Source: Stappia sp. WLB 29
GTDB taxonomy: Bacteria; Pseudomonadota; Alphaproteobacteria; Rhizobiales; Stappiaceae
Assembly: GCF_023507705.1 (NCBI RefSeq)
Contig: NZ_JALBGD010000013.1
Span: forward strand, 1 to 64,000
Direction: 5' to 3'
Length of the DNA: 64,000 nt
Below, piece after piece: positions 3,319 to 51,015 of the stretch (its first letter is position 1; every line of letters begins with the position of its first letter). Position numbers and translations under genes: made by a program. The notes beneath the pieces are model-generated. The model worked only from the letters and a program-made list of their open reading frames with translations. It ran no database searches and was not told the DNA's origin.

Positions 3319-3333
3319 GGCGAGGCTGATCCC

Positions 3334-4455: not shown

Positions 4456-4461
4456 GCCGTC

Positions 4462-7529: not shown

Positions 7530-8534
7530 ATGAGCGCCGTCACTTCACCGGAAGTTGATCACGAGCAGGTCGCCCGCGATGCGGAAGCGGCGATGGACAG
7601 GATCACCGCCGCCCGCACCGAAATCGCCCGCATCATCTTCGGCCAGGAAAGCGTCGTCGAACGCGCGCTGGTCACCTTGCTCGCCGGCGGCCACGGCCTG
7701 CTGGTCGGCGTGCCCGGCCTTGCCAAGACCAAGCTGGTGGAAACGCTCGGCACGGTGCTCGGCCTCGATGCCCGGCGCATCCAGTTCACGCCGGACCTGA
7801 TGCCCTCCGACATTCTCGGCGCCGAGGTGATGGACCAGGCCCGCGACGGCAGCCGCGCCTTCCGCTTCATCAAGGGGCCGATCTTCTCGCAGGTCCTGAT
7901 GGCCGACGAGATCAACCGCGCCAGCCCGCGCACCCAGTCGGCCCTGCTGCAGGCGATGCAGGAATACCACGTCACCGTCGCCGGCCAGAGCTACGACCTG
8001 CCGCGCCCCTTCCATGTGCTCGCGACCCAGAACCCGCTGGAGCAGGAGGGCACCTATCCCCTGCCCGAGGCGCAGCTCGACCGCTTCCTGATGCAGATCG
8101 ACGTGCACTACCCCGACCGCGAGGCGGAACGGCGCATTCTCATGGAGACGACCGGCGCCCAGGACGCGAAGGCGACCGCCGTCATGTCGGCTGAGGATCT
8201 CGTCGCCTGCCAGCAGCTCGTGCGCCGCATGCCGGTCGGCGAGAGCGTCGTCGAGGCGATCCTCGAGCTCGTCCGCTCCGCCCGTCCCGGCGAGACCGAC
8301 GACGAGATCACCAGCCAGATCGCCTGGGGCCCCGGACCGCGCGCCAGTCAGGCCTTGATGCTCACCGTGCGTGCCCGCGCGCTGGTCGACGGCCGTCTTG
8401 CACCGTCGGTGGACGACGTGCTGGCGCTGGCCGAGCCGGTGTTGCAGCACCGCATGGCGCTGACCTTCGGCGCGCGCGCCGACGGGCAGACGATCCGCGG
8501 GGTGATCGGTCGCATCAAGAGCCGGATCGGGTAA
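7530..8534 (+). CDS. MoxR family AAA+ ATPase
   Basis: AAA+ chaperone-like ATPase of the MoxR/RavA class, thought to help insert metals or assemble VWA-containing protein complexes. Walker A is GVPGLAKTK (about 61-69), Walker B LMADEINRA (about 124-132), and sensor 1 LATQNPLEQEGTYPLPEAQL (about 163-182). The C-terminal lid domain ends with a GVIGRIKSRIG helix. The 334-residue length is usual. It heads a four-gene cluster (MoxR, DUF58, BatA/DUF4159, large membrane protein) with 6- to 10-base gaps or overlaps. This order matches the aerotolerance (Bat) type operon of many bacteria. ATG follows AGGAGGTAAGAATCGACC. Confidence 0.95.
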   Translation: MSAVTSPEVDHEQVARDAEAAMDRITAARTEIARIIFGQESVVERALVTLLAGGHGLLVGVPGLAKTKLVETLGTVLGLDARRIQFTPDLMPSDILGAEVMDQARDGSRAFRFIKGPIFSQVLMADEINRASPRTQSALLQAMQEYHVTVAGQSYDLPRPFHVLATQNPLEQEGTYPLPEAQLDRFLMQIDVHYPDREAERRILMETTGAQDAKATAVMSAEDLVACQQLVRRMPVGESVVEAILELVRSARPGETDDEITSQIAWGPGPRASQALMLTVRARALVDGRLAPSVDDVLALAEPVLQHRMALTFGARADGQTIRGVIGRIKSRIG

Positions 8535-8540
8535 CGGCTC

Positions 8541-9497
8541 ATGAGCGGCCTAGGGCGCTTTTCTTTCTCCTCGCCGGGCTCCGCCGCGCAGGACGACCCA
8601 CAGGGAGCCCCCTGGCCGCAGGTCGTCGCCGGCGCGCGATCGCTCGCCGAGGCCCTGCCCGACCTCCTGGTCGAAGCCCGCCAGGTAGCCATGACGATCA
8701 ATGCCGGCTGGCACGGCCGCCGCCGCTCCGGCACCGGCGAGAATTTCTGGCAGTTCCGCCCCTTCATCGCCGGCGAGCCGGTGCGCCGCATCGACTGGCG
8801 CCGTTCGGCCCGCGACGATCATCTCTATGTCCGCGAGCGCGAGTGGGAGGCCGCCCACACCGTCTGGCTCTGGGCGGACCTGTCGCCCTCCATGGGCTTC
8901 CGCTCGCATCTTTCGGCAACGCTGAAGCGCGACCGCGCCCTCGTTCTGCTGCTGGCGCTCGCCGATCTACTCGCCGACACCGGCGAGCGTATCGGCCTGC
9001 CCGGCCTGCGCCGCCCCGTCGCCGACCGCCATGCGGCCGAGCGCATTGCCGATGCGCTGGGGCATCTCGCCGATCCGGTCGGCCTGCCGCCGACGGAGGA
9101 TATCCGCCGCTTCTCCGAAGTCGTTCTGATCGGCGACCTGCTCGACCCGGTCGAGGAAACGCTCGCCTGGATGCGCAAGGTCGCCGCCACCGGCGCCCGC
9201 GCCCATGTGGTCATGGTCCTCGACCCCATCGAGGAGACCTTCCCCTTCACCGGCCGCACCGAGTTCCGCGACCCCGAGACCGGCTTCAAGCTCACCAGCG
9301 GCAAGGCCGAGCAGTGGCGGCGCGCCTATCGCGACCGGCTGGAGGCGCACCGCCAGGCGCTGTCGGATGCCGCCCGCCGCGCCGGCTGGACCTTCGTCGT
9401 GCATCACACCGACCGCCCGGCGTCCGAGCCGATGCTGGTGCTGCACAGCCGCCTCAGCGGCATTCCGCTCAATGGACCGGGAGGCGCCGGCAGATGA
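8541..9497 (+). CDS. DUF58 domain-containing protein
   Basis: Protein of 318 residues with the DUF58 core: FRPFIAGEPVRRIDWRRSAR (about 70-89) followed by LYVREREWE. After it comes a VWA-like half with WLWADLSPSMGF, whose D-x-S-x-S pattern resembles a degenerate MIDAS. Members are encoded beside MoxR ATPases and are presumed clients or partners. No membrane segment is visible here, so this copy is likely cytoplasmic. The gene starts six bases after the MoxR stop, and its TGA overlaps the ATG of the next gene (ATGA). Confidence 0.92.
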   Translation: MSGLGRFSFSSPGSAAQDDPQGAPWPQVVAGARSLAEALPDLLVEARQVAMTINAGWHGRRRSGTGENFWQFRPFIAGEPVRRIDWRRSARDDHLYVREREWEAAHTVWLWADLSPSMGFRSHLSATLKRDRALVLLLALADLLADTGERIGLPGLRRPVADRHAAERIADALGHLADPVGLPPTEDIRRFSEVVLIGDLLDPVEETLAWMRKVAATGARAHVVMVLDPIEETFPFTGRTEFRDPETGFKLTSGKAEQWRRAYRDRLEAHRQALSDAARRAGWTFVVHHTDRPASEPMLVLHSRLSGIPLNGPGGAGR

Positions 9498-12328: not shown

Positions 12329-12338
12329 GAGCGCACCT

Positions 12339-14417
12339 GTGATCTGGTCCCTCTCCTTTGCCCCTCTCGTGCCGGTCTGGGCGCTCGCCGCCGCCGCGGT
12401 GGTCGCCCTGCTGCTGGTCGTCGGCGCCTTGGTGCTGCGCCTGCCGGCCTGGCCGTTGCGGGCGCTCGCCATGGCGCTTCTGTTGCTCGCGCTGACGGGC
12501 CCTGCGCTCGAACGCGAGGACCGCGAGCCGCTGTCCAGCGTCGTTTCCGTCATCGTCGACGAAAGCCAGAGCCAGCGCCTCGCCGACCGCACCAGCGCCG
12601 CCGCTGAAGCCTTGAGCGCGCTGGAGCAGCGCTTTTCCGGCCTGCCCGGCTACGAGGTCCGGGTGACGCGTGCCGGGCGCGGCGACGGCGCTACCGCCGA
12701 CGGCACGGCGCTGTTCTCCGCGCTTGCCGACAGCCTGTCCGACGTACCGCCGGACCGTATCGGCGGCGCCGTGATGATCACCGACGGCCAGGTCCACGAC
12801 ATTCCCGCCCGTGCCGCGGACCTGGGCTTCAACGCCCCGCTCCACGCGCTGGTCACCGGGCGCGAGGACGAGATCGACCGCCGTCTTGCCATCGCCCGCG
12901 CCCCGAAATTCGCGCTGGTCGGGTCCGAGCAGGTCGTGACGCTGCAGTTGCAGGACCGCGGCGTGACAGGCGCCAGCGGCCGGGTGCCCATCGTGGTGCG
13001 GCGCGACGGCGAGGTCGTCTCCCAGCAGATGGCCCAACCCGGCGCCACCATCGACATTCCCGTCACCATCGCCCATGGCGGCAACAACATCTTCGAGTTT
13101 TCCGCCGAGGTGCTGGAGGGCGAACTCACCGACATCAACAACCGGGTCGTCGTCACCATCGAAGGCATCCGCGAAAACCTGCGCGTCCTGCTGGTCTCCG
13201 GCAGCCCGCATGCGGGCGAGCGCACCTGGCGCAACCTGCTGAAGTCCGACGCCTCCGTCGATCTCGTCCACTTCACCATCCTGCGTCCGCCCGACAAGCA
13301 GGACGGCACGCCGATCCACGAGCTGTCGCTGATCGCCTTCCCGACGCGCGAACTTTTCTCGGTGAAGATCGACGAGTTCGACCTGATCATCTTCGACCGC
13401 TACGAGCGGCGCGGCGTGCTGCCCCTCCTGTATTTCGACAACATCGCCCGCTATGTGCGCGAGGGCGGCGCCGTGCTCGTGGCCGGCGGCCCCGACTACG
13501 CGGAGGGCGGCAGCATCTACCGCACGCCGCTGTCGCCGGTCCTGCCGGCAGAGCCCAGCGGCACGATCTACGAGGAGCCGTTCCGCGCCGGCATCTCCGA
13601 GGTCGGCAACCGCCATCCGGTGACGCGCGACCTGCCCGGCTCGGCCTCTGAGCCGCCGGCCTGGAGCCGCTGGTTCCGCCTGGTCGATGCGGCCGTGCGC
13701 AACGGCGAAACGCTGATGACGGGCACCGAGGACAAGCCGCTCCTGGTGCTCAGCCGCGAGGGCGAGGGCCGCGTCGCCGTGCTCCTGTCCGATCACGTCT
13801 GGCTGTGGGCGCGCGGCTACGAGGGCGGCGGCCCGCATGTCGACCTGCTGCGCCGTCTCGCCCACTGGCTGATGAAGGAGCCGGATCTGGAGGAGGAGGC
13901 CCTGCGCCTCACCTCGCGCGGGGCCGAGGTCGTCGCCGAGCGCCAGACCATCGGCGAGACCGTCGGCGACATGACGCTGACCCTGCCGGGCGGCGAAACG
14001 CGCAACCTCACCCCGACCGAGGTCTCGCCCGGCCTGTGGCGCGCCACCGCGCCGGCGCCCGATCTCGGCCTTTATTCCGTCGACGACGGCACCCGCAAGG
14101 CGCTGGTCCATGTCGGCCCGCCGAACCCGCGCGAGTTCACCGACGTGCTGTCGACCGTGGAGACCCTTGCGCCGGTTGCCGGCGAAACCGGCGGCAGCGT
14201 CCGCCGCCTCGCCGGAGCGGACGACCGCATCGTCGTGCCGCGGGTGGTGCCGATGCGCCGGGCGACCAGCTTTGCCGGCGACGGCTGGATCGGCTTCCGC
14301 ACGACGGAAGCCAGCATCCTGCGCGGCATCGACCGCTATCCCCTGTTCCAGGGCCTGCTCGGTCTCGCCCTGCTGCTCGGCGGCGTGTCGTTCTTGTGGT
14401 ATCGCGAGGGACGCTGA
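12339..14417 (+). CDS. large membrane protein with glutamine-amidotransferase-like region
   Basis: A 692-residue protein that completes the MoxR cluster. Two N-terminal hydrophobic helices (about 8-32 and 36-58) and one C-terminal helix, GLLGLALLLGGVSFLWY (about 670-686), bracket a large soluble part. VSVIVDESQSQR near 72 is a VWA-like strand with a D-x-S-x-S pattern. The segment LLVSGSPHAGERTWRNLL and the region around EGGAVLVAGGPDYAEGG resemble the class I glutamine amidotransferase-like fold seen at the end of such operons, but I see no obvious catalytic Cys-His pair. The start is GTG at 12339, 10 bases after the previous stop, with TAGGAGCG in front. Confidence 0.85.
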   Translation: MIWSLSFAPLVPVWALAAAAVVALLLVVGALVLRLPAWPLRALAMALLLLALTGPALEREDREPLSSVVSVIVDESQSQRLADRTSAAAEALSALEQRFSGLPGYEVRVTRAGRGDGATADGTALFSALADSLSDVPPDRIGGAVMITDGQVHDIPARAADLGFNAPLHALVTGREDEIDRRLAIARAPKFALVGSEQVVTLQLQDRGVTGASGRVPIVVRRDGEVVSQQMAQPGATIDIPVTIAHGGNNIFEFSAEVLEGELTDINNRVVVTIEGIRENLRVLLVSGSPHAGERTWRNLLKSDASVDLVHFTILRPPDKQDGTPIHELSLIAFPTRELFSVKIDEFDLIIFDRYERRGVLPLLYFDNIARYVREGGAVLVAGGPDYAEGGSIYRTPLSPVLPAEPSGTIYEEPFRAGISEVGNRHPVTRDLPGSASEPPAWSRWFRLVDAAVRNGETLMTGTEDKPLLVLSREGEGRVAVLLSDHVWLWARGYEGGGPHVDLLRRLAHWLMKEPDLEEEALRLTSRGAEVVAERQTIGETVGDMTLTLPGGETRNLTPTEVSPGLWRATAPAPDLGLYSVDDGTRKALVHVGPPNPREFTDVLSTVETLAPVAGETGGSVRRLAGADDRIVVPRVVPMRRATSFAGDGWIGFRTTEASILRGIDRYPLFQGLLGLALLLGGVSFLWYREGR

Positions 14418-14443
14418 GCTGCGCTATCGGCTGCGAAGACGTC

Positions 14444-14956
14444 TCAGGCCGCGATGGCGTCGCGGCCGCCGCGCACCTTGCCTTGCGGCATCTCGCTGCC
14501 CGGCACCAGGTTGGCGACCAGCAGCCGCGCCGGATCGACCGGCCCCGGCAGGGTGATCCGCCCCATCGGCACCGGCGCAAAGCCGAGCGGCCCGTAATAG
14601 GGCGCATCGCCGACCAGCAGCACGCTCTTCTCGCCCAGCGCCTGCGCGGTCTTCAGCGCCTGGTTGACCAGCAGCCGGCCCAGTCCCCGGTTCTTGAAGG
14701 CGGGCGCCACCGCCAGCGGGCCGAGCAGCTGCGAGGGCGCATCGCCGATGGTGATCGGCGTCAGCCACACCGAGCCGGCGAAGACGTCGCCGCTCATGCC
14801 CACGAAGCTCAGCCGCCGGTCGTGCTCGACCCCCTCGCGCAGACGGAAGGCCGTCTTGGCGAAGCGTCCCGGGCCGAAGGCTTCGGCCTGCAGGTCGAGA
14901 ATGGCGGGAAGGTCGGAAGGCAGTTCGTTCCGGATAAGCCAGGACAGTGCGAGCAT
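14444..14956 (-). CDS. GNAT family N-acetyltransferase
   Basis: Acetyl-CoA-dependent acetyltransferase of 170 residues. The acceptor side is followed by the CoA-binding motif LGPLAVAPAFKNRGLGRLLV (about 82-101), whose xxRGLGxx loop is the pyrophosphate-binding site, and by the strand KSVLLVGDAPYYGPLGF. The FGPGRFAKTAFRLREG segment near residue 27 resembles YhbS-type enzymes, which act on small molecules or proteins. The substrate is unknown. It converges on the end of the MoxR operon with a gap of only 26 bases. Confidence 0.9.
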   Translation of the reverse strand: MLALSWLIRNELPSDLPAILDLQAEAFGPGRFAKTAFRLREGVEHDRRLSFVGMSGDVFAGSVWLTPITIGDAPSQLLGPLAVAPAFKNRGLGRLLVNQALKTAQALGEKSVLLVGDAPYYGPLGFAPVPMGRITLPGPVDPARLLVANLVPGSEMPQGKVRGGRDAIAA

Positions 14957-15373
14957 GGATCGGATCTCGGTGGTCGGTACGGTCAGGCGGAAACTTGCGC
15001 CTTCGATCCGCTCCGCCGGTTCATCCCCAACGCTCTAGCCGGATCTCAAGGCACACGTGTGACGACGCGCGAGGGCTGGCCTCGTCGCAAGTCTCGTCGT
15101 CGCTGCCGTTCGATCCTGTTCATCGCGTCCTGCTCTTGCGGCACGCCTTTCGGCATCCGCGGCAACCGGTCTCGGTCCGACCCGCCTCCCGCAACCGGGA
15201 AGGCTATCATGGCCGGATGGGGTCGGTATCATGCAATGCCCGGACCGTAAAGCGCTTTTAAGGCCCGGACCATCGTTCACTCACCGTGAATGGTCCATTC
15301 GCGCGGTTGAAGCCGCGCGACCCGGTCCCATCTCCTATCGTGAACGACAGCGACACGAGAGGGGAAACGCGAC
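14957..15373. promoter_or_regulatory. 417-base divergent intergenic region with inverted repeat
   Basis: No gene is convincing here. It must contain the promoters of the leftward acetyltransferase and the rightward glutathionyl-hydroquinone reductase. CACACGTGTG at 15052-15061 is a perfect 10-base palindrome. At 15267-15296 GGACCA...TTCAC pairs with GTGAA-TGGTCC, giving an 11-base-pair imperfect inverted repeat with a three-base bulge. It lies about 80 bases before the reductase start and is a plausible operator. CGAGAGGGGAAACGCGAC just before 15374 supplies the ribosome-binding site. Confidence 0.5.
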
Positions 15374-16351
15374 ATGGGCATGCTGGTGGACGGAGTGTGG
15401 AAGGACGTGTGGTACGATACCAGTTCGACCGGCGGGCGGTTCGAGCGAAAGGAGTCCTCCTTCCGCAACTGGGTCACCCGCGACGGCGCCCCCGGCCCCA
15501 GCGGCAGGGGCGGTTTTTCCGCCGAAAGCGGCCGCTACCACCTCATGGTCTCCTTCGCCTGTCCCTGGGCGCACCGCACGCTGATCTTCCGCAAGCTCAA
15601 GGGCCTGGAGGACAAGATCTCGCTTGCTGCGGTCGAGCCGCTCATGCTGGAAAACGGCTGGACCTTCGCGAAGCCCGAACCCGAGACCGGCGCCGAGACC
15701 GCCTGGCAGGTCTATGTGAAGGCCGACCCGGATTACACGGGCCGCGCCACCGTGCCGATCCTCTGGGACCGCAAGACGCAGACCATCGTCTCGAACGAAT
15801 CGGCGGAGATCATCCGCATGTTCAATTCCGCCTTCGACGACCTTCCCGGCGTCGAGAGCGGGCTGGACTTCTTTCCCGAAGGCCTGCGTCCCGAGATCGA
15901 GGAGGTCAACGCCCGCATCTACGACGAGGTCAACAACGGCGTCTACAAGGCCGGCTTCGCCACCACGCAGGAAGCCTATGAGGAGGCGGTGACGACCCTT
16001 TTCACCGCGCTCGACTGGCTGGAGGACCGCCTGTCGCGCCAGCGCTATCTCGTCGGCGGCCAGTTGACCGAGGCCGACTGGCGCCTGTTCACCACGCTTT
16101 TGCGCTTTGATCCGGTCTATGTCGGCCACTTCAAGTGCAACATCCGCCGCATTGCCGACTATCCGGCGCTGTCCGGCTACCTGCGCGAGCTCTACCAGCA
16201 TCCCGGCGTTGCGGACACCTGCGACTTCGCCACCATCAAGCGGCACTATTACGGCTCGCACGGCACCATCAACCCGACCGGCATCGTGCCGCTCGGCCCG
16301 GTGCTCGACCTGGACCGCCCGCATGGCCGCGACGCGCTGCCGAAGGGGTGA
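15374..16351 (+). CDS. yqjG: glutathionyl-hydroquinone reductase (Ecm4/YqjG type)
   Basis: Xi-class glutathione transferase that reduces glutathionyl-hydroquinones to hydroquinones using glutathione. The diagnostic motif SFACPWAHR is present, with the catalytic cysteine at residue 63. The thioredoxin-like domain continues through VPILWDRKTQTIVSNESAEI, and the helical C-terminal domain includes YLVGGQLTEADWRLFTTLLR and the family ending TNPTGIVPLGP. At 325 residues the length is typical. It probably acts in the cytoplasm in quinone or redox detoxification. Confidence 0.94.
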   Translation: MGMLVDGVWKDVWYDTSSTGGRFERKESSFRNWVTRDGAPGPSGRGGFSAESGRYHLMVSFACPWAHRTLIFRKLKGLEDKISLAAVEPLMLENGWTFAKPEPETGAETAWQVYVKADPDYTGRATVPILWDRKTQTIVSNESAEIIRMFNSAFDDLPGVESGLDFFPEGLRPEIEEVNARIYDEVNNGVYKAGFATTQEAYEEAVTTLFTALDWLEDRLSRQRYLVGGQLTEADWRLFTTLLRFDPVYVGHFKCNIRRIADYPALSGYLRELYQHPGVADTCDFATIKRHYYGSHGTINPTGIVPLGPVLDLDRPHGRDALPKG

Positions 16352-16355
16352 CGCC

Positions 16356-16829
16356 CTACCAGAACGGCGAGGGCGGGCTTTCTCCGGAAAGCTCCGCGAT
16401 GCGCCGCAGCGTCGCCGGGCTGGTGTCCGGCGGCAGCGCCTCCGGCGCGAAGAACCCGGCCTCGCGGATCTCGCGATTGGGCGCCAGCGCCCCGTCCGGC
16501 ACCGCCTCCACCGCCGCGCGGTAGAGCGCGACATGGTCGCGGATATGGTTGCGCCGGTTGTGATAGACGGCAAAGAGCGCCGGCTCGCCGCCGATCACGC
16601 CGGTCTCCTCGCGCAACTCGCGCAGCGCCGCCTCGGCCAGCGTCTCGCCCGCATCCACCGCTCCGCCCGGCAGGTACCAGCCGGCCAGATAGGTGTGGCG
16701 CACCAGCAGCAGTCGCCCTTCCGCGTCCGTTGCCGCAACGCGCACGCCCAGCGTCATCGCCCGCTGATAGCGGGTGAGCGACAGCGTCAGCCGCCTCAGC
16801 CCCTTCATGCCCGGCAGGCTTCGCCTCAT
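16356..16829 (-). CDS. NUDIX hydrolase
   Basis: Nudix hydrolase of about 157 residues. The Nudix box [20 protein letters not shown] followed by ETGV is complete. It is preceded by [17 protein letters not shown], typical of the nucleotide-sugar/MutT-like branch. The frame is open 80 codons farther upstream, but that part shows no coding character. I chose ATG 16829 because GGAAGGG lies about 10 bases upstream; MKGLRRL at 16808 is a second possibility. The substrate cannot be assigned. It converges on the reductase gene with a 4-base gap. Confidence 0.87.
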
Positions 16830-16927
16830 CCCGTCCGTATCCCTTCCATCGCTGTCGGGCCCCATCCGGCCGGCAGAACCGCAAGCTTTGCTTAACCCAC
16901 CATGCGCGCCCTGCATGGGAGCACTGC

Positions 16928-16959
16928 CCGAATCGCGCTTGTTCGTGCCCGCGATTCGG
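16928..16959 (+). repeat. 10-bp perfect inverted repeat in leader of small ORF
   Basis: CCGAATCGCG at 16928-16937 and CGCGATTCGG at 16950-16959 are perfect inverted repeats around a 12-base loop. They lie about 108 bases before the 37-codon ORF and about 100 bases upstream of the divergent Nudix start. It could be an RNA hairpin in a 5' leader or a DNA operator; no T-tract follows, so it is not an intrinsic terminator. Confidence 0.6.
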
Positions 16960-17067
16960 CCAATTGTGCCATCGCAGCCGAAGGAGCGGCACCCGGACGA
17001 GAGAGCTCGAAAATGCGAGCGCCGGGACGAAGCCCGTCTCCAAGCTGCCTTCTCGAAGGAGAGACCC

Positions 17068-17181
17068 ATGTTGTCGGCCCTGTTCCCGGCTTTCGCTCGT
17101 CGTCGCTATGTGTGGCGTCCGGCGGTCGACCTGACCAACCCGCGCATCGCCGCGGTGCTGACCACGTTCAGCAGCAACTGA
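17068..17181 (+). CDS. small 37-residue protein of unknown function
   Basis: Short ORF beginning [18 protein letters not shown] and ending LTTFSSN. An excellent ribosome-binding site (CGAAGGAGAGACCC) sits at good distance before its ATG, and a hairpin-plus-T-tract terminator follows about 70 bases after the stop, so it looks like a stand-alone transcription unit. The peptide is basic, with a hydrophobic N-terminus and an RRR cluster. I do not recognise it. It could be a functional small protein or a leader peptide within a regulatory RNA. Confidence 0.55.
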
Positions 17182-17253
17182 CAGGATCCTCGGCAGGGCG
17201 CGCATCGCGCCGCCGCAGAGCCTTTGTGAGCACCGTCCGCATGGGACGGATGG

Positions 17254-42626: not shown

Positions 42627-42664
42627 AAAAGGAAAACGGGCGGACATCCGCTCCGCTTGTCCGC
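42622..42664 (-). terminator. intrinsic terminator of the four-gene unknown operon
   Basis: GCGGACA (42640-42646) and TGTCCGC (42658-42664) are perfect inverse repeats. On the minus strand the stem is followed by CCGTTTTCCTTTTTT. It lies about 60 bases after the last gene of the leftward operon and abuts the convergent hydrolase gene. Confidence 0.75.
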
Positions 42665-42722
42665 ATCGAAGGGTCCGGGAGAAGGGCGCCGCCCCTCCTC
42701 CCGGACCGCCGCAGGCGTCGTC

Positions 42723-45700
42723 TCACTCGTCCTTCACCACTTCCGTGAGTTCCCAGACGGCGACGCCGGCGGAGCCGAGATTGCCGACGACGATCAGCGC
42801 CTCGCCGATGATCGCCGGGATGTAATAGGTCGCTTCCTGGATATCCGGAACGAACAGGAAGCGAGTGGCCTGACCGGGAATGACGTTGGTCAGCGCCCGA
42901 GACAGGCCGAGTTTGGCGAGCTTGTCCTTTTTCGGACTCGCCGCGTAATTCCATGAAATCATTCCGATATTGGCAAAGCCCCACAGCGTGATGGTCAGCT
43001 CCGCCGTATAGGTGCGCGCCTTGCCGCCGGGAAACGCCAGGATCAGCAGTCCGCGCGTCGGCCCTGCGATCACCTGGCAGATCCAGATGACGCCGGCAAA
43101 GCCGGGATCGCCGGCCGGACAGCTCGGCGCCGGCGAGCCGGGCCGGATCAGCCAGGGCATGGTGGCGAAGGTGGTGACGTAGCGCATCAGGACGGCAGCG
43201 AGGCCCGCAAGGTTCTTGCCCTTCGGCGTCCAGCTCTTCGAGTAATTCTTCAGCCCCTCCGGCACCTTGCTGCCCTGGTCGGGGATCGCGCCGGTGGAGC
43301 TGAGGAAGCCGGTGAGCCCGTCGGTGAAGATGCGCACGACCATGGCGGCGGCGTAGATGCCGAGCGAGACGCCGGCCACCACCTTCTCCGAGGTGCTGTC
43401 AAGCAGCACCTGCTTTTCCGTCGTCATGCCGAACTTCGACTTCACCCAGTCGACGGTGACGTAGTTCTTGTAGGCATCGAGCGAAGCCTCGTCCGGGAAC
43501 GGCGCCTTGCCGGTCGCCAGCTTGTAGATCAGCGTCGCCGGGATCGCGACCAGCCACGAGGCGATCTGGCTGACGCGGATCGACAGGCTCCTGCCGGTGA
43601 AGAACTTGTAGAGCTGCGACAGAACCGGAATTTCCCATTCCGAGAACAGCACGTCGCGGAAGGATTCCACCACCTCGCGGACCAGGTCCATCAGCGTCGC
43701 GATGACGCCCTTGGCCGCGTCCAGCGCGAAAAGGGCGACGCTCTCCATCAGCTTGATGACGCCGCTCATCAACAGGTTGAGAGCGTTGTTGGGATCATCG
43801 CCGATGGCGGTGAAGAAGGTCAGCGCCTCCTCGAACGCCTCCTTGCCGTCGCCGAACTGGAAGTTGTTGGCAAGGTCCTCCATCATCGCGATCAGCCCGT
43901 CGAGCGAACTCGACAGGGCGCTGGAACTCATCAGACTGACCGCACTGCCGCCGCCCCGTTCGTCGGCCTTCCCGCCATTCTGCTCGTAGGCATTGGCGAA
44001 GAGATTGTGTTCCATCTCGTAGGCTTGGTCGTCGGTCATCTCCTGCTGCGACGAGAACTGGTCGTAGGTCGGATTGTCGTCCTTGTTGAGCTCGTCGATC
44101 ATCGTGTCGACGACCGACTGGAGCGACTCCTTAAGCGTGTCGATGCCCGACAGGATCATGTCCTTGACGTGGTCGACGCCGGCGGCCGTGAAGTCGAGCA
44201 GCACCCGGGTGTTGTGTTCCACCGCCTCGGCCATGCGCTGGAAATCGCCGAGGTTGAACAGGAAGGCGAGCCATTCGAACAGCTGGCGCAGCTTGACCTT
44301 CAGCCAGTTCCAGACCCCTTGCACGAAGTCGAAGGCCTGCTGCACGAACTCGATGATCGCCTCGAACACCTTGCCGGCGATCTCGAACAGCACCCGGCCG
44401 ATGCCATCGATGATCTCGACGACGATCTTGGTCAGCCCGTCGATGACGAAGTTCGCCGCGTTCTTGATGCCGTTCCACACATCGCCCCAGTCGATGCCGA
44501 GGAACCCGGCGACCTCGGCACCGTCGTCATTGGCCGCCGAGGCGCGCATGGCGGCAAGGCGCTCGCCCTTCCACTCGGCGACCTGCGCGAGCGTCATCGG
44601 CTGGTACTGCGGAAAGCCGGAGGTGAAGTCGATGGACCAGGCCGTGCCGGACATGGCGCGCAAGTCCAGCCGCGGGTCGAAGCCGCGCGCCGCCTTGCGC
44701 CGGGAGACCGTGTGGTAGACGACCCGCGCGGCCCGCGTCTCGCGCTGACCGGCGATCTCCATCGAGGCCTGGGTGATCTGCTGCAGGCTCTGCGCATATT
44801 CATCGCTGCTGCGATATTCGGCCGGCAGCAGGTAGTTGCCGGCCGCATCCTTGGCGTTCTTGATGTCTGCGACCGAAAGGCTGGCGAGCTTTTCCTGAAG
44901 CTGCAGGTTCGGTTCCACCACGATGGGCGTACCGGCCAGCGTTCCCGGCGTCTCGATATAGATCGTCGCCGCCGCGAGCGCCGTCGCCTGCTGGTAGATC
45001 ACCAGCTTGCCGCCCGGTCCGGTCTGAGCAGCAACGCGGTTGAGCTGGCTGCAGCGGTAGGAGCGGCCGTCGACGAACAGGGTCACCAGGAACGAGGCCT
45101 GGATCGAGACCGGCGCGAAGGACAGCGGCATGCCGTCTTCGTCCAGCACCACCACTTCCAGCGCGTGGGTCTCCACCGGCACCATGTCGTTGTCCTGGCG
45201 CAGCAGATCGATGCGCTGGTCGAACCACTGGCGCGAGGTCGGCGACTGCCAGAAGCGGGTAAGGTCGCCGGCCGCCGACACCGTATAGGCCTCCGCATAG
45301 CCCGCCCGGTCGCGCCCGACGGTGAAGATCGTCGCCTTGGAGCCCGGATCGGACGGGATCTCGTTGCCGAGCGGAAACAGCGTCTGCCACACCGGATCGG
45401 CGCTGCGCCCGCGGCCCGGCGCCTGCCCGGCCCGCCACAGCCGTCCGTCGCTGCCGATGCCGAAGACCTGCAGCAGGTCGTCGAAGGTGACGGAGGCATA
45501 GATCTCGGTCAGCGGCACGCTCTGCGCGGGATCGACCTGGATCCAGTCGTCGAACTGCTTCACCGTGCCCGACTGGTACTTTTTCTCCTTTTTCAGCAGC
45601 AGCTTGCCGGTGCCCAGCTCGACCGCGAAGATCGCCAGCCGGTCGTTGGCATCCGCCACCACATAGAGCGCCGTCGCCTTCTTCGGCCCGAGCACCCGCA

Positions 45701-46397
45701 GCGCCGAAGTACGGTCGCTGGTCTCGCTGAACAGGACCGAATTGTCCTTGCCGATGGCGAAGATCGCCGATTGCACGGCGCTATTGGCCACCATGGCGAT
45801 GCTCTTGACCTGGGCCTGCGTGCCGCCCGGTCCCATCACCGGCGCCCAGACCGGGCCCGCCCATTCGCTGGTGCCCGGCTTGAAGAAATTGTTGGCGAGC
45901 AGGCCGTAGTCTTCGCCCGGCACATCCAGCATGACGTTGACATAGACATTGCCGGTGATGCCGCGCGCGCCGCGGAACTGGCGGATGGTCTCGCCTGCAT
46001 CGCGCGGCTTGGTTTCGCGCTGGTAGTAGCTGCCGGTGGTCGCCTGGTACTCGGCCAGCGACAGCTGCCCGGTATCGCCCAGCGTCATGATGTTGGGCGT
46101 GTCGCTGCCTTCGGTGCCGGAGGTGTAGAGGAAGAGCTGCCGGCCTCGGATATGCAGGTCGGTGTCGTCATAGGGCGCCATCGACTTCTCGCCCCGGCGC
46201 AGGCGGTAGACCTCGCCCCCGGTGCCGATGGTGTAGAGGTCGAGATCGCCGGCGGCATTCGCATAGGTGACGATATCGGTGCCGCCGAGCGCGGGCCGGG
46301 AGAGCTGGAAAGTCTCCATGTATTTGGTGCTGGCGCGCGCCGCCGGGCGCTCGCCGGCATCGAGTTCAGCAAGGACGGATCTGGGCATCGCAATCAT
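42723..46397 (-). CDS. large beta-propeller / membrane-inserting protein, unknown
   Basis: Last gene of a four-gene operon; 1224 residues, no named family recognised. Residues about 30-440 contain repeated propeller-like blades, for example DLDLYTIGTGGEVYRLRRG, SAIFAIGKDNSVLFSE, LLQVFGIGSDGRLWRAGQ and AYTVSAAGDLTRFWQS, giving roughly seven repeats. Residues about 440-610 are mixed. Residues about 630-770 form long amphipathic helices (starting GIDWGDVWNGIKNAANFVID). The C-terminal 215 residues contain about five hydrophobic segments, such as VSLGIYAAAMVVRIF near 1010 and AIIGEALIVVGNLGSAGVAV near 1185. There is no signal peptide. The ATG at 46397 follows CGGGAGGTTTCC and overlaps the end of the preceding gene by 32 bases. 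The architecture suggests a recognition domain attached to a membrane-inserting body; this is inference. Confidence 0.8.
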   Translation of the reverse strand: MIAMPRSVLAELDAGERPAARASTKYMETFQLSRPALGGTDIVTYANAAGDLDLYTIGTGGEVYRLRRGEKSMAPYDDTDLHIRGRQLFLYTSGTEGSDTPNIMTLGDTGQLSLAEYQATTGSYYQRETKPRDAGETIRQFRGARGITGNVYVNVMLDVPGEDYGLLANNFFKPGTSEWAGPVWAPVMGPGGTQAQVKSIAMVANSAVQSAIFAIGKDNSVLFSETSDRTSALRVLGPKKATALYVVADANDRLAIFAVELGTGKLLLKKEKKYQSGTVKQFDDWIQVDPAQSVPLTEIYASVTFDDLLQVFGIGSDGRLWRAGQAPGRGRSADPVWQTLFPLGNEIPSDPGSKATIFTVGRDRAGYAEAYTVSAAGDLTRFWQSPTSRQWFDQRIDLLRQDNDMVPVETHALEVVVLDEDGMPLSFAPVSIQASFLVTLFVDGRSYRCSQLNRVAAQTGPGGKLVIYQQATALAAATIYIETPGTLAGTPIVVEPNLQLQEKLASLSVADIKNAKDAAGNYLLPAEYRSSDEYAQSLQQITQASMEIAGQRETRAARVVYHTVSRRKAARGFDPRLDLRAMSGTAWSIDFTSGFPQYQPMTLAQVAEWKGERLAAMRASAANDDGAEVAGFLGIDWGDVWNGIKNAANFVIDGLTKIVVEIIDGIGRVLFEIAGKVFEAIIEFVQQAFDFVQGVWNWLKVKLRQLFEWLAFLFNLGDFQRMAEAVEHNTRVLLDFTAAGVDHVKDMILSGIDTLKESLQSVVDTMIDELNKDDNPTYDQFSSQQEMTDDQAYEMEHNLFANAYEQNGGKADERGGGSAVSLMSSSALSSSLDGLIAMMEDLANNFQFGDGKEAFEEALTFFTAIGDDPNNALNLLMSGVIKLMESVALFALDAAKGVIATLMDLVREVVESFRDVLFSEWEIPVLSQLYKFFTGRSLSIRVSQIASWLVAIPATLIYKLATGKAPFPDEASLDAYKNYVTVDWVKSKFGMTTEKQVLLDSTSEKVVAGVSLGIYAAAMVVRIFTDGLTGFLSSTGAIPDQGSKVPEGLKNYSKSWTPKGKNLAGLAAVLMRYVTTFATMPWLIRPGSPAPSCPAGDPGFAGVIWICQVIAGPTRGLLILAFPGGKARTYTAELTITLWGFANIGMISWNYAASPKKDKLAKLGLSRALTNVIPGQATRFLFVPDIQEATYYIPAIIGEALIVVGNLGSAGVAVWELTEVVKDE

Positions 46398-47325
46398 GGA
46401 AACCTCCCGAAAATCTGGCCGGTGAAAGAGACAGGTCGAAAGGGGTCGTCGCCCGGTCGGCAAGCAGCCGGGCAAGTTGCAGGGCGGGGGCACGCCAGAG
46501 CGGGCGGCCATGGGCATTGCAATAGAGGGGACGGTCATGCGGGCGGCGGGCGGCGCGGTCGCGCGCATCCACCGGGGCGAGCGATGCGGCAAGGCCGTCG
46601 AGGCCGGGGACGCCACAGGCCCGCGCCCGCAGCGCGGCGATCGCCAGTTCCGCCGGGTGGGCATAGTAGGGGCTGAGCACGCGCATCGCCGAACGGCTGG
46701 GCGCATGCTGGGAGACGGCTGCGGAGATGCGCCCGGCCAGCCGCGGCATCAGGGCGGAAAGCGAACAGCCCGAGCGCCCTGCACCGCAAACGGCGAGCGC
46801 CGCCAGCACGTTGAGATTGACCGTCAGGTCGACGGGGCCGGGATCGCTTTCGTGGAACCAGGTGCGCAGGAGCGGCGCCCGCGCGAACGGCGGATCGCCG
46901 CGGCGCAGCGGCCCGCAGGCAAGGCGCGGCAACAGGCCGGCAAGCCGCACCAGCCCTTCGCGCGCCTCGCGGCGGCGGCCGCCGACCAGCGCCATCCAGG
47001 CGAGCGCGCTGTCGTCCGCATCCGGCGGCAGGCCGTCGATCAGGCGAGGCCCGCGTCCCCCTTGCGGATAGAAGCGGAAGGCTCCCGGCAGGCTCGCATC
47101 CTCGCACGTCTCCAGGAAGTCCAGCGCCCGCGCATGCGCGTGGATCGCCGCCTCGCTTCGGCCGAGCGCAGCAAGCAGCAGTGCCACCTGCGCGGTGACG
47201 AAGCAGCTTTCGTCGGCGACCGCCTCCGCAGGCGTTTCCACTTGCGAGGGGAAAGCCCCGGACGGGGCCTGCAAGGCCAGAAGATCGGCCAAAAGATCGA
47301 CCAGACGCGGGGCAGGCTCAGCCAT
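46366..47325 (-). CDS. alpha/alpha-toroid (terpene cyclase-like) protein, unknown
   Basis: Third gene of the operon, 319 residues. Helical, with repeats resembling the prenyltransferase / squalene-cyclase toroid: LLALQAPSGAFPSQVETPAE (a QW-like 'LQ..SGAFPSQ' motif), DESCFVTAQVALLLAALG, DADDSALAWMALVGGRRREA and PVDLTVNLNVLAALAVCG. I see no DxDD protonation motif of true squalene-hopene cyclases, and the protein is only half the usual cyclase length. It may therefore be a single-toroid enzyme or a binding scaffold. It starts 8 bases inside the end of the second gene. Confidence 0.75.
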   Translation of the reverse strand: MAEPAPRLVDLLADLLALQAPSGAFPSQVETPAEAVADESCFVTAQVALLLAALGRSEAAIHAHARALDFLETCEDASLPGAFRFYPQGGRGPRLIDGLPPDADDSALAWMALVGGRRREAREGLVRLAGLLPRLACGPLRRGDPPFARAPLLRTWFHESDPGPVDLTVNLNVLAALAVCGAGRSGCSLSALMPRLAGRISAAVSQHAPSRSAMRVLSPYYAHPAELAIAALRARACGVPGLDGLAASLAPVDARDRAARRPHDRPLYCNAHGRPLWRAPALQLARLLADRATTPFDLSLSPARFSGGFHDCDAQIRPC

Positions 47326-48421
47326 GGCAGGCCTCCCGGCTCTGCCCGAAGGCGGCCAGCGTTGCCGTTACGCGCGCCGAAGCCTTGCCGGCCAGCACCA
47401 GGCCGACCAGCCCGTGCCGCTGCAGCGGGGCTTCGCCGTGCGGCGCGCCGGAACCGCTGAGGGCGTGTCGGTAGGCCGCCATGTCCCAGCCGCGCACGGC
47501 GCCCTCGGCAAGCAGCGCCTCGGTCACGCGCGCGTCCGGGCCGAGCAGGGCGGCAGCGTTCGAATAGAAGGTGAAGGCCAGCGCATGGGCGCGCTGCGCC
47601 CGCCCCTCGCCCACTATCTGGAAAGCGACGGAAAAGCCGACATCGCTGGAGGGGATCTCGAAGCGGACGCTCCGCCCGGTCAACCGCTCCACCAGCCGGC
47701 GGATCTCCCGTCCGCGCGGGACAAGGCCGAACCGGCGCATCAAGGTATCGAGATCGCCGGGGAACAGCGGGTCGGTGCGATAATAGAGCTCCAGCACGCC
47801 GCCATCCGGCGTGACACCCAGCATCGTCGGCCGGACGTTCCGCCCCGTCAGCACCGGCGGAGCGCCGGCAAGGCGCTGCTCGAAACCGACCCATCGCGGG
47901 CGACCTGCGGCATCCACCGCGGGTGCCACCTCCAGATAGAGCTTGGCCGCAAGGCGGCCCGATGCGCTTTGGCGCAGGCCCGCCCAGGCGCCATAGCGCC
48001 CGCCCGCCTGCCGCTGCCAGCAGGACAGGCGCGCGACGAGCCGCGACACCTCGGGCGACGGCTCCGCGCCCGCGACCGCCCGGCAGAGCGACAGCGCAGC
48101 CTCGAGCCGGGTCCCGGGCAGCGCGCCGGGCGCCGGATCGAGACTGACGCGGGGATCGCAGCCCGGCTCGCCGTCGGCCCACACGAAGGCCGCCTCCATC
48201 GGCGCGCCGGACGGCGTCAGGTCGCTCGGTAGACGGTCGGGCGCAAGCACCGCCGGCGGCAGCAGCGGACGGATCGCGGCCAGCAGGCGGTCGAGCAGCG
48301 AGACGGCTGCAGCCGGACCGGCTCCCGCCTGCAAGGACGGGAGTGGTGCCGGGGGAGCGGCCCCCGGCCCCTGCTGCAACCGCGCGCTCCCGGAGGGGAT
48401 CGGCGGGGACATGGCGATCAC
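47318..48421 (-). CDS. unknown protein, possibly ABBA-prenyltransferase-like
   Basis: Second gene of the operon, 367 residues. A proline/alanine-rich N-terminal 45 residues precedes a mixed alpha/beta body with alternating long strands: AAKLYLEVAP, VLELYYRTDPL, VGFSVAFQIVG and ALAFTFYSNAA, and a final VGLVLAGKASARVTATLAAF. This K/R-x-Y strand pattern at regular spacing recalls aromatic (ABBA-fold) prenyltransferases, but the similarity is by eye and weak. The start is a GTG overlapping the first gene's stop (GTGA); an ATG three codons in (48412) is an alternative. The adjacent toroid protein would fit prenyl chemistry. Confidence 0.7.
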   Translation of the reverse strand: MIAMSPPIPSGSARLQQGPGAAPPAPLPSLQAGAGPAAAVSLLDRLLAAIRPLLPPAVLAPDRLPSDLTPSGAPMEAAFVWADGEPGCDPRVSLDPAPGALPGTRLEAALSLCRAVAGAEPSPEVSRLVARLSCWQRQAGGRYGAWAGLRQSASGRLAAKLYLEVAPAVDAAGRPRWVGFEQRLAGAPPVLTGRNVRPTMLGVTPDGGVLELYYRTDPLFPGDLDTLMRRFGLVPRGREIRRLVERLTGRSVRFEIPSSDVGFSVAFQIVGEGRAQRAHALAFTFYSNAAALLGPDARVTEALLAEGAVRGWDMAAYRHALSGSGAPHGEAPLQRHGLVGLVLAGKASARVTATLAAFGQSREACHG

Positions 48422-50766
48422 CCGCCCTGACGCATCCGCGCGGCCAGCGCTCCGGGCTCCATCACCTGACGTACGAGGCCCGGCGTCACGGTCGCAGGCG
48501 GCAAGGCCGGCAGTTCCACCGAGAGGCGGCCCGAGACTTCCTGGCTTTCGAGCTCGCGGGTCGTGCCGTCCTTCAGCACATAGACCGCCGTGTAGTAGAA
48601 CTCGATCGTCGGCTCAGCAATCGGCCGCTGGATGCCGTAGAACCGCTCCAGGCTGTCGACGACGACGCCGGACGGCGCACCCAGCAGGCTGAACAGCATC
48701 ACATTCTGCTGGGAGGCCTCTGCCTCGATCCGCTGCGCGGTCGTCATCTCGTGGCGCGGCCGCGACAGGAAGGCCGGCACGTTTTTGCCGAACTTCTCGC
48801 GGACCTGCGGCTTCAACTGGAACATGGTCAGGTTGACGCTCGCCACCTGCGTCCAGTCGACGAGGCTGCTGTCGACCTTGACGCTGTAGTTCTGCACCGT
48901 GTTGGTGACCGTCATGGTCTTGTATTCGCTCGACTGGCGGTAGCCGTCGAGGGTGAAGCTCTCGCCGTTCGAGTAGAAGATCGTGCCTGAGAGGTTGAAA
49001 TAGGCATTGTTGGTGTTGTCGACCGCCTGGAAGTTCCAGCGGGGCTCGGCAAAGCTCAGGAGCCCTGTCGGCTGCCAGTTCGACCAGGTGTTCTCGGCGA
49101 TCCATTTGTCGCCATTGTTGACCGGATCGAAATACTGGGCGTTGACGTCCACCAGCAGCAGCGTCGTGGTTTCCGTCGTGTAGTTGAACGCCCGTAGCGT
49201 GAACTGGGTGAACAGCCCCTTCGGATCGGCCACGAAGACGATGTCGGCATTGCCCGAGCCCGTATAGTCGGGGGCGGACGACAGGGCGCCCGGTGGTTCC
49301 GAGACGATCTCGCTGTTGTCGGCCATCTGGTAGCGCAGCCGGTAGCTGTAGTTCTGGCCGATGGGTAGATTGTAGAAACTGTCGAAACGGACCCCGTTCT
49401 CCGCACCGTTGGCGGTGAGAGTCTTGGTCTGGACGATGGCCGGGTTGCCCGCCGGCGGCGCGAAGAAGAAGTCGATATTGACCTCCCGCACCCCGGCCGG
49501 ACCGGAAAACGGGATGTTCTGGCCGATGAAGGTCACTTGCCGCGTTCCGAAGACGTTCGGCGTGATGTTGACCAGCGTGTCCGTCGTGGTGATCGGATCG
49601 CTCTTGAAGGTCTTGCCGTCCTTGAAGTTGATCACATAGGTATAGGTGAATTCCGGATTGTAGCTGCCTCCAGAAAAGTCGCCCGGCGCGTCGTAGATCT
49701 TCGAGGACTGGTCGCCGTCGGTGACGATCAGCGTGAATGTGTTGTCGGTCGGCCGCGTCGGATAGGTGACGGTCACGGTGACGGTCTCGGCCACGGGGTC
49801 GTCCGTGCCGGAGCGGTTGAGCTCGCCGATCAGGTTGAACACCACCGACAGCTTACGGTTGTCGACCTTTGTGAAAACCTGCTTCCACTCGTCCGGGCTG
49901 AAGCGGCGCATGAAGCTGCTCACCGGCGTCGACCAGTCGATCACCGTGTCTTCCTGGTAAGTCTGGTTGAACGAGGTCGTCGCCGAGACCGGATTGGGAC
50001 CCGTGGCCATGACGGCGGCCGCCGCCACCGTATCGGCGACCTGGTTCTCCAGCGTCGTCCAGCCCCAGTCGCGCACCCTCTGGGCCAGTTCGTCGCTGCT
50101 GCCCGGCCCGAGCTCGACCTTGACTTCGCCCGCGCCCGACTGGCGCAGCACCTGCTTGACTTCCTGCAGCACCTGCTTCTGGTTGCCCCAGGTATCGCGG
50201 ACGGTCTTGTATTTCTTCTCGTACTCGATGGCCGCCTCGGCGGTGTAGATCACTGTGGCCTTGGCGCCGAGCAGCTTGGTCAGCACCTGCATCTCGTATT
50301 CGACGCGGAAGGTGGAGGCACCGCCCTCGTCGCCGCTGAAGGCGTTCTTGAAGCTGTTGACCGCTTCCGGCGTCGCCAGCTCGATCTGGAAAGCGGCGAC
50401 ATTGGTGCCGTAGAGCGTCGGCTCGACCGCCAGCACCTCGTTCTCGCCGGCGATGTCGTAGTAGAAATAGGCGGTACCGCCGACCCAGACGAAGCCGCCC
50501 CAGGAAATGTCGGAGCCGAGGATCTCCTCGGCCGCGCGGCGTGCCTCCAGCGGCTGCACGAGCTCCATCTCGAAGGTACAAAGACCGGCGATGCCCCCGC
50601 CATTGGAGGTGTACTCGGTCATCCCGAAGGACGGTGCCCCGTCCAGCGTCCGCAGGCGCGGCACCGGCACCATGTACCAGAGCTTGGGATTGTCGTGGTC
50701 CTGGTAGACATAGGTGACGCCGCTGGCGCCGTACTCGATCTCGCGAACGCTCGAGACGTCGAACAT
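48418..50766 (-). CDS. 782-residue all-beta protein, unknown
   Basis: First gene of the four-gene operon. The N-terminus reads VREIEYGASGVTYVYQDHDN then PKLWYMVPVPRLRTLDG. A duplicated beta-rich region follows, with a helical insert (EKKYKTVRDTWGNQKQVLQE). Residues about 300-700 are rich in T, S, N, Y and V with Ig/FN3-like strand patterns (TVTVTVTYPTRPTDNTFTLI, YSYRLRYQMADNSEIVSEP). It lacks a signal peptide, membrane helices and catalytic motifs I can name. Codon use seems less GC-extreme than in the neighbours. ATG 50766 is preceded by GGAGGGCTGTG; a GTG one codon upstream is possible. The protein may be a secreted-type adhesin or structural partner lacking a standard export signal. Confidence 0.78.
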   Translation of the reverse strand: MFDVSSVREIEYGASGVTYVYQDHDNPKLWYMVPVPRLRTLDGAPSFGMTEYTSNGGGIAGLCTFEMELVQPLEARRAAEEILGSDISWGGFVWVGGTAYFYYDIAGENEVLAVEPTLYGTNVAAFQIELATPEAVNSFKNAFSGDEGGASTFRVEYEMQVLTKLLGAKATVIYTAEAAIEYEKKYKTVRDTWGNQKQVLQEVKQVLRQSGAGEVKVELGPGSSDELAQRVRDWGWTTLENQVADTVAAAAVMATGPNPVSATTSFNQTYQEDTVIDWSTPVSSFMRRFSPDEWKQVFTKVDNRKLSVVFNLIGELNRSGTDDPVAETVTVTVTYPTRPTDNTFTLIVTDGDQSSKIYDAPGDFSGGSYNPEFTYTYVINFKDGKTFKSDPITTTDTLVNITPNVFGTRQVTFIGQNIPFSGPAGVREVNIDFFFAPPAGNPAIVQTKTLTANGAENGVRFDSFYNLPIGQNYSYRLRYQMADNSEIVSEPPGALSSAPDYTGSGNADIVFVADPKGLFTQFTLRAFNYTTETTTLLLVDVNAQYFDPVNNGDKWIAENTWSNWQPTGLLSFAEPRWNFQAVDNTNNAYFNLSGTIFYSNGESFTLDGYRQSSEYKTMTVTNTVQNYSVKVDSSLVDWTQVASVNLTMFQLKPQVREKFGKNVPAFLSRPRHEMTTAQRIEAEASQQNVMLFSLLGAPSGVVVDSLERFYGIQRPIAEPTIEFYYTAVYVLKDGTTRELESQEVSGRLSVELPALPPATVTPGLVRQVMEPGALAARMRQGG

Positions 50767-51015
50767 CACAGCCCTCCATCGAAAAAATTGAATGAACTTA
50801 AATCACACTCTATGCGCGAATTTTCGCACTGAGGGCAGGCTCACACAATCGATAGAAGCTGCAACATTGATCCTATTTTCGACATTGAACAGGCATTTCA
50901 AGTCAAAATTAAAATTACAACCTTATAAAAACTGTCATAGTTACGCAGAGGTATTTTATGAAAATAGTAAAATACATTGAAATGAAGGAACAAATCGCAA
51001 TCATCGGCGAAAATA
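50767..51015. promoter_or_regulatory. AT-rich control region of the unknown operon
   Basis: About 250 bases of markedly AT-rich sequence (for example AAAATTAAAATTACAACCTTATAAAAAC near 50910) in an otherwise very GC-rich window. It separates the metal-importer permease, which ends at 51016 and reads leftward into this region, from the four-gene operon. It must contain the operon promoter and possibly a terminator for the importer. I see no clear intrinsic terminator, so read-through from the importer operon is possible. Short frames here are not convincing genes. Confidence 0.55.

Follow-up and report, generated by a model that had tools for sequence, protein, structure and literature searches.

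We analyzed a 64,000-nucleotide stretch of DNA from Stappia sp. WLB 29 (contig NZ_JALBGD010000013.1, positions 1 to 64,000; hereafter the window), whose source genome comprises 4.75 Mb in 37 contigs. It carries an operon of four overlapping minus-strand genes, which we call A, B, C, and D. Genes A, B, and C were found linked in distant genomes; B is predicted to adopt the fold of an ABBA prenyltransferase, and C is probably a relative of class II terpene cyclases. We tentatively propose, with rather less than even confidence, that B and C attach a terpene to a partner protein (A being the most likely one) and cyclize it, within a membrane-targeting, toxin-like set of proteins.

Linkage and conservation of the four genes

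Gene A (48418..50766, minus strand, as are all four) encodes a 782-amino-acid, beta-rich protein, judged from the open reading frame (ORF) listing, an alignment, and a partial model, and is the core of a conserved A-B-C module. It starts with ATG at 50766, with a GTG one codon further upstream. Gene B (47318..48421; 367 amino acids) starts with GTG and gene C (46366..47325; 319 amino acids) with ATG. Gene D (42723..46397) starts with ATG at 46397 and encodes 1224 amino acids; a longer in-frame ORF of 1327 amino acids is also listed, and homologs align from approximately the ATG at 46397. By ORF coordinates and sequence, A and B overlap by 4 bases (GTGA), B and C by 8 bases, and C and D by 32 bases, exactly the arrangement reported in an earlier note on this DNA. 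Relative to five other copies, the ratio of nonsynonymous to synonymous substitution rates (dN/dS) was 0.09 to 0.27 for A, 0.35 to 0.53 for B, 0.18 to 0.39 for C, and 0.08 to 0.36 for D (synonymous sites were saturated in the Nioella comparison; dS of 1.1 to 1.6). All four genes are under purifying selection. Given these ratios (0.08 to 0.53) and a gene order conserved in relatives, A to D are genes rather than chance ORFs. The earlier note could assign none of them to a named family, and Pfam and NCBIfam scans of A to D likewise returned nothing above cut-off; a PADLOC scan of the four gave no match.

Queries with C and with D each matched in 13 of 14 Stappia genomes (the exception for D being a genome that is 89% complete), and C had no match in the family outside Stappia (73 genomes). 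The order A-B-C-D was observed in the window, in 12 other Stappia loci inspected, and in three species of Nioella, which belongs to another family. Identity of the Nioella proteins to those of the window was 53% (A), 44 to 46% (B), 40 to 42% (C), and 55% (D). Read by eye, the Nioella flanks are unlike the Stappia flanks; two Nioella loci have genes in common further upstream, and their downstream sides differ. Azospirillum lipoferum plasmid AZO_p5 carries A, B, and C side by side, a Calothrix plasmid carries consecutive A, B, and C genes followed by a short second A, and in one further genus (genomes G1232, G1434, and G1545) B and C close a row of A-family genes. Across the strong-C loci examined, including the window, B lies directly upstream of C without exception (21/21 loci from five lineages; this count includes S. 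taiwanensis, whose C is a deleted copy).

Wider scans showed these genes to be rare. With A as query, matches came from 2 of 150 genomes in the order (both Stappia), 2 of 248 in the Nioella family, and 3 of 385 in the class, the last scan adding the further genus named above. C matched in 3 of the 10 genomes searched in the order of that genus, in a single cyanobacterium out of 339 (the Calothrix genome that served as the search center), and in 6 of 398 across the phylum. Two of these six matches were strong (the window's own genome and one Nioella) and four, in other Pseudomonadota, were weak (E of 1.6e-8 to 8e-4); tblastn searches with A to D were empty in the two of these four that were checked. 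A genome-collection scan with A returned 12 loci, namely eight Stappia-like (one a metagenome bin), three Nioella, and one Calothrix, and scans of viral contigs with A and with C returned no relative.

The earlier note treated the four genes as a joint system and asked whether homologs are normally unlinked or belong to housekeeping families. The opposite was found for A, B, and C, which are kept together in distant genomes. Among the loci seen, however, D stands beside A-B-C only in Stappia and Nioella; it is absent there in Azospirillum and Calothrix, and none was seen in the G1232/G1434/G1545 genus. Therefore, the wider core is A-B-C without D. Taken by itself, the absence of D from these loci would also fit a chance adjacency of unrelated genes, but that view is hardly credible, as it is already contradicted by the linkage of A-B-C in five lineages and of A-B-C-D in two families with different flanks.

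The predicted prenyltransferase and the putative cyclase

A structure model of B, built with 13 aligned copies, was of good confidence (predicted local distance difference test [pLDDT] 83.2; predicted template modeling score [pTM] 0.83) and showed five beta hairpins alternating with helix pairs, the PT barrel of ABBA and dimethylallyl tryptophan synthase (DMATS) enzymes. Foldseek searches with this model gave a best E of 2.9e-12, with prenyltransferases in all 50 listed matches. VIA searches aligned 310 residues with 5-dimethylallyl tryptophan synthase (6zrz; Z 23.0; root mean square deviation 4.8), followed by PriB (Z 22.9) and, at a Z of ∼15, Orf2 of Streptomyces CL190 and AmbP1; all 50 listed matches were prenyltransferases of the ABBA fold. 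No viral structural match was found at an E of 0.001. Bacterial DMATS/indole prenyltransferases (5-DMATS, PriB, IptA, CymD, and TleC) thus resemble B in fold over ∼300 residues (Z 19 to 23), at 15 to 19% identity in the structural alignments. In addition, a profile of 14 B copies aligned with TleC (E 4.8e-4) across the E76/R91 region, where the GxPxE and Arg stretches coincide. Residues E76 (within GxPxE), R91, K160-x-Y162, and E211-x-Y213 are invariant in all 14 aligned copies. We take Glu, Arg, Lys, and Tyr residues of this kind to form the active site of DMATS enzymes, in which a Lys presumably occupies the position of E211. Unlike these enzymes, B of the window had no Pfam match, and no tryptophan-alkaloid genes were seen nearby. 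From the model, the structural searches, and the alignment, we conclude that B almost certainly has an ABBA prenyltransferase fold of the DMATS type, in keeping with its earlier description as ABBA-like.

C carries the motif DADDS at residues 102 to 106, and DxDD was present in 14 of 14 aligned copies (the alignment left out the S. taiwanensis copy and several further Stappia and Nioella copies). For an hhalign comparison, ten squalene-hopene cyclases were collected through PF13243; C and their DxDD domain aligned DxDD on DxDD (Prob 80%; P 1.4e-5). Against the full-length cyclases the value was 71.6%, and control comparisons gave 0.9% (B versus cyclases), 0.07% (A versus cyclases), and 0.06% (C versus B). 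Squalene-hopene cyclase was also the top match of C profiles among PDB sequences (E 0.026 with 6 copies and 0.021 with 14). The terpene-cyclase families of Pfam matched none of six C copies, and one copy gave a TED_complement match below cut-off (E 0.031). C thus aligns with the DxDD domain of squalene-hopene cyclase at the motif and its surroundings but differs in having ∼300 residues, one domain instead of two, and low sequence similarity. On the hhalign comparison and the alignment, we consider it likely that C is related to terpene cyclases, probably as a class II-like protein with a single domain and a DxDD motif. The earlier suggestion of a half-cyclase-like toroid, still a putative fold, is upheld as far as the alignment with the cyclase goes, with DxDD in register.

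The closest known enzyme appears to be NctPC, described in the available excerpts of a 2026 review as a fused ABBA prenyltransferase-cyclase that acts on tryptophan (PMC13290415). As described there, NctPC combines the same pair of enzyme types as B and C, an ABBA prenyltransferase and a single-domain class II-like cyclase, and B and C would fit a split version of it. NctPC is one chain, whereas B and C are two overlapping genes rather than a fusion. Moreover, unlike NctPC, no peptide precursor was found here, the partners being proteins of 782 and 1224 amino acids. Among the open-license titles and abstract openings listed in literature searches, none was seen to describe an ABBA prenyltransferase and cyclase pair tied to large proteins or toxins, which is weak evidence of absence. 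Taken as a pair, B and C probably act in sequence on one substrate, a view we hold less firmly than the cyclase kinship of C.

One alternative has B and C act on a small ribosomal peptide that escaped annotation, with A and D as neighbors serving another role. The excerpted review presents NctPC and ChrPC among peptide-modifying enzymes (PMC13290415), and two Nioella loci have in common a short ORF ∼110 bases upstream of A, with a Trp in one of them. We nevertheless judge this very improbable: the ORFs of the window overlap end to start, and no small Trp-bearing ORF common to the Stappia copies was found upstream of A (the search covered 254 bases for the window and 301 bases for 7 relatives; ATG starts, at least 15 codons, sense strand).

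Protein A, protein D, and toxin-like neighborhoods

The model of A residues 1 to 330 was of low confidence (pLDDT 64.8) and included helices at 73-83, 133-143, 190-209, and 225-254, among others; A is accordingly better called beta-rich than all-beta, as it had been labeled. The N-terminal model gave no usable structural match (best Foldseek E 0.017; best VIA Z 7.1). UNC119-type lipid-binding folds appeared among the matches of the N terminus without reaching significance (E 0.1 to 0.3). Against PDB sequences, A reached only chance level (E 1.8); in PHROGs, a library without cut-offs, residues 367 to 546 matched a "peptidase" entry (E 3e-4).

All 16 Stappia and Nioella copies of A inspected contain a single cysteine, Cys63. 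In a 27-row alignment, Cys63 was present in 14 of 14 A proteins from B-C clusters versus 0 of 13 A-family paralogs, four of which sit in B-C clusters beside a Cys63-bearing A. The rows were hand-chosen, leaving out X1, X2, short a, PRZ_3380, PRZ_5841, PCC_21607, and PCC_24603 as well as further Stappia and Nioella copies. Trp193 and Trp278 both occurred in every full-length A protein from a B-C cluster (13/13); in the other paralogs, where the alignment is uncertain, Trp193 was found in one and Trp278 in three. ABBA enzymes prefer aromatic rings, and Trp193 and Trp278 therefore stay candidate sites. Prenylation of A on cysteine alone was considered and not adopted, although Cys63 tracks B-C.

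By BLAST, A-family genes also occur in groups: three in a row in the G1232/G1434/G1545 genus, four in a Pararhizobium qamdonense cluster, and five in Paracoccus SMMA_5. In genome G1434, A (2372-4672) resembles A at its front and the A'' of sister genomes at its back, by eye and BLAST, as if two genes had fused. The Pararhizobium qamdonense cluster, on plasmid p2 (3380-20444), comprises eight hypothetical genes, four of them the A-family genes; no B or C was recognized. A 588-amino-acid protein in it looks cysteine-protease-like by eye and had no Pfam match, and the cluster is flanked at some distance on either side by cytochrome P450 genes.

D likely starts with a lectin-type beta-propeller and continues into a helical C-terminal part, according to weak profile matches and hydropathy. 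Residues 98 to 385 matched the NCBIfam beta-propeller lectin model NF052348 (5e-6; 25.8 bits versus a cut-off of 200), and Nioella D matched the CV39L lectin model NF052350 (4.6e-10; 39.1 bits versus a cut-off of 350). Unlike CV39L/PHL-type lectins, D lies far under the family cut-offs and has ∼800 more residues after the propeller. A hydropathy average marked hydrophobic segments at 872-906, 1006-1024, 1103-1121, and 1196-1214 in the C-terminal part. Both halves of the earlier description of D as a propeller/membrane protein thus find counterparts in these results. Tape-measure matches to D in PHROGs (best 2.1e-5) were taken as a resemblance of amphipathic helices. The C-terminal part of D is common to plasmid proteins of Stanieria (11089-14682), Undibacterium (8402-11875), and Kovacikia (7778-10996), whose N termini differ: lectin-propeller matches in Stanieria, a LamG annotation in Undibacterium, and no family match in Kovacikia. 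Since these relatives share the C-terminal part and differ at the N terminus, D may be a partly exchangeable recognition module on a shared helical part. Neighbors of these relatives include a TIR-domain protein (Kovacikia) and an Avs1c-annotated gene (Undibacterium).

Genes around A-B-C, or around A-family genes, in some other lineages resemble toxins or conflict-system components. In Azospirillum, two genes just upstream of A-B-C encode MakB-family (2.7e-122) and MakA-family (5.4e-129) proteins, both above the NCBIfam cut-off, and a third gene between this pair and A encodes a MakA relative below cut-off. The MakA-family protein of this locus (9572-10954) has ∼97 extra N-terminal residues before the MakA match. 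In Calothrix, A-B-C is followed by a 309-residue protein, an MnuA-like nuclease (2e-5; below cut-off), and a 1494-residue protein. The latter (12698-17182) belongs to no family, and its last 100 residues resemble, by eye, the second-half repeats of A. In Paracoccus, A-family genes lie beside EAD1, nucleoside triphosphatase (NTPase), trypsin-like, phospholipase-D-like, and tyrosinase genes, with no proven B-C pair. No toxin-like gene was seen near A-B-C in the G1232/G1434/G1545 genus. The label "toxin-like" rests on the Azospirillum, Calothrix, and Paracoccus neighbors, that is, on guilt by association, and we place the probability of such a role for the set just short of an even chance.

According to the excerpts available, Vibrio cholerae makes a flagellum-facilitated, tripartite alpha-pore-forming toxin from its Mak proteins (PMC8617504, PMC11484084). 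The mak operon resembles the Azospirillum locus in that its MakA and MakB families stand just upstream of A-B-C there. Unlike the mak operon, the window holds no Mak-family match in A to D: neither the MakA, MakB, and MakE models nor Bacillus_HBL matched any of the four proteins, D included. MakC and MakD, whose DALI neighbors are given as 4lzk, 4q52, and 4pib in the excerpted source (PMC11484084), were set aside as homologs of A, B, and C by this published description only; these three structures are absent among the matches listed for B and for the A N terminus.

The five Paracoccus A-family genes lie on plasmid pNSM5TCa of Paracoccus sp. SMMA_5_TC (L081 5541-28883; L083 5013-9572) in a larger cluster with an EAD1/trypsin-like protein, a further EAD1 protein, an AAA/STAND-like NTPase, a phospholipase-D-like protein, a tyrosinase, and a second trypsin-like protease; this is possibly a larger conflict system. 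The available part of a paper on EAD-type conflict systems makes no mention of a prenyltransferase or tyrosinase (PMC7159879). By eye, one Paracoccus protein (L083 7476-9572) suggested a fusion of C and B; hmmsearch with both profiles missed it. By hhalign, its C half scored above all decoys (Prob 17%; P 0.0015) and its B half below shuffled decoys. Because the B half is unsupported, the possible fusion was excluded as evidence.

A proposed terpene modification and features flanking the operon

Combining these observations, we propose that B would use an isoprenyl diphosphate as donor to prenylate a side chain of a partner protein and that C would protonate and cyclize the attached chain, as NctPC does on tryptophan. 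The most likely acceptor would be A, with Cys63, Trp193, and Trp278 as candidate sites. Once modified, A could anchor to a membrane along with D; the lectin propeller of D would select the target, its hydrophobic helical part would act on the membrane, and other members of the toxin-like set would differ between lineages. We are inclined to doubt, without dismissing it, that the substrate of B and C is a protein of the operon. It is rather unlikely that the fuller version holds, in which a folded protein of ∼780 residues bears a polycyclic terpene on a side chain, this terpene is the membrane anchor of a toxin-like or membrane-active complex, and the effector (lectin-propeller protein, Mak-type pore former, or nuclease) is exchangeable between lineages. 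The B-C pair stands next to a large protein in every locus seen and near toxin-like genes in some. The substrates known for ABBA prenyltransferases are small molecules and short peptides (PMC13290415); if the proposal is right, terpene tailoring would extend from these to whole proteins, bacteria would possess a lipid anchor distinct from both acylation and cysteine prenylation, and enzymologists would gain a protein-directed, separable prenyltransferase and cyclase.

Alternatively, B and C could make a small meroterpenoid, such as a prenylated and cyclized indole or tryptophan, with A and D as carrier, scaffold, or means of target recognition. The solved relatives listed for B mostly act, by their titles, on free amino acids or small molecules, DxDD cyclases act mostly on small isoprenoids, and the Paracoccus cluster with A-family genes has its tyrosinase gene after the possible C/B relative. 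Yet the operon contains no other pathway gene, and what accompanies B-C throughout is a large protein, with no metabolite enzyme seen in common between lineages. We regard this alternative as unlikely.

Several observations weigh against modification of a protein by B and C in a membrane-targeting set. The PF11991 (Trp_DMAT) model matched neither the window's B nor any of five B copies scanned, and a distant B copy reached only an E of 0.0077 (16.1 bits versus a cut-off of 25). In plain profile searches, the matches of C to cyclase given above are below threshold, and the squalene-cyclase model PF13243 had no match in the window's own genome. In S. taiwanensis, an in-frame deletion in C (13337-14238) removes the DxDD stretch, which is kept in all other aligned Stappia copies. 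B and C are, by dN/dS, the fastest evolving of the four genes, which is unusual for enzymes. The Cys63 pattern comes from few independent lineages (about five, since the Stappia and Nioella sequences are not independent) and from the hand-chosen rows, and in a tree of A N termini the Cys63 proteins do not form one clade (support at the key node, 0.60). Read by eye, neither A nor D begins with an obvious signal sequence. Finally, D had no toxin-family match in the Pfam and NCBIfam scans, and two of its hydrophobic segments fall below threshold in Nioella, where only counterparts of the first and last, plus 933-951, exceed it.

Some of these points would also suit a structural toxin or adhesin complex of A to D in which B and C are inactive relatives acting as chaperones or assembly factors: both evolve fast, and a DxDD-less C persists in one species. 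The mak operon offers a parallel, as two accessory proteins of it, MakC and MakD, are retained intracellularly and are dispensable for toxin activity, according to the excerpted sources (PMC11484084, PMC8617504). However, the residues expected for catalysis are kept in copies only 26 to 32% identical to those of the window, and inactive relatives would not need them. We consider this explanation improbable; the modification of a partner protein by B and C is the favored reading.

The flanks of the operon were scanned for control signals. The earlier note had inferred one control region and one terminator for the four genes, a claim that is less secure than the gene layout. In the 249-base gap upstream of A (50767..51015, minus strand), a promoter scan of the minus strand gave no promoter-like site. 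Downstream of D, a hairpin region (42633..42710, minus strand) is a possible terminator by folding energy (−55.9 kcal/mol over 111 nucleotides; z −3.25) and terminator scan, with two overlapping terminator-like matches at 42633-42656; however, the scanned region held 10 such matches versus 5.7 ± 3.0 in shuffled sequence. Elsewhere, Bradyrhizobium diazoefficiens plasmid pNK6d (11674-12552) carries, among transposases, a fragment like the A N terminus, 36% identical over ∼116 residues to Azospirillum A, which is probably a remnant.

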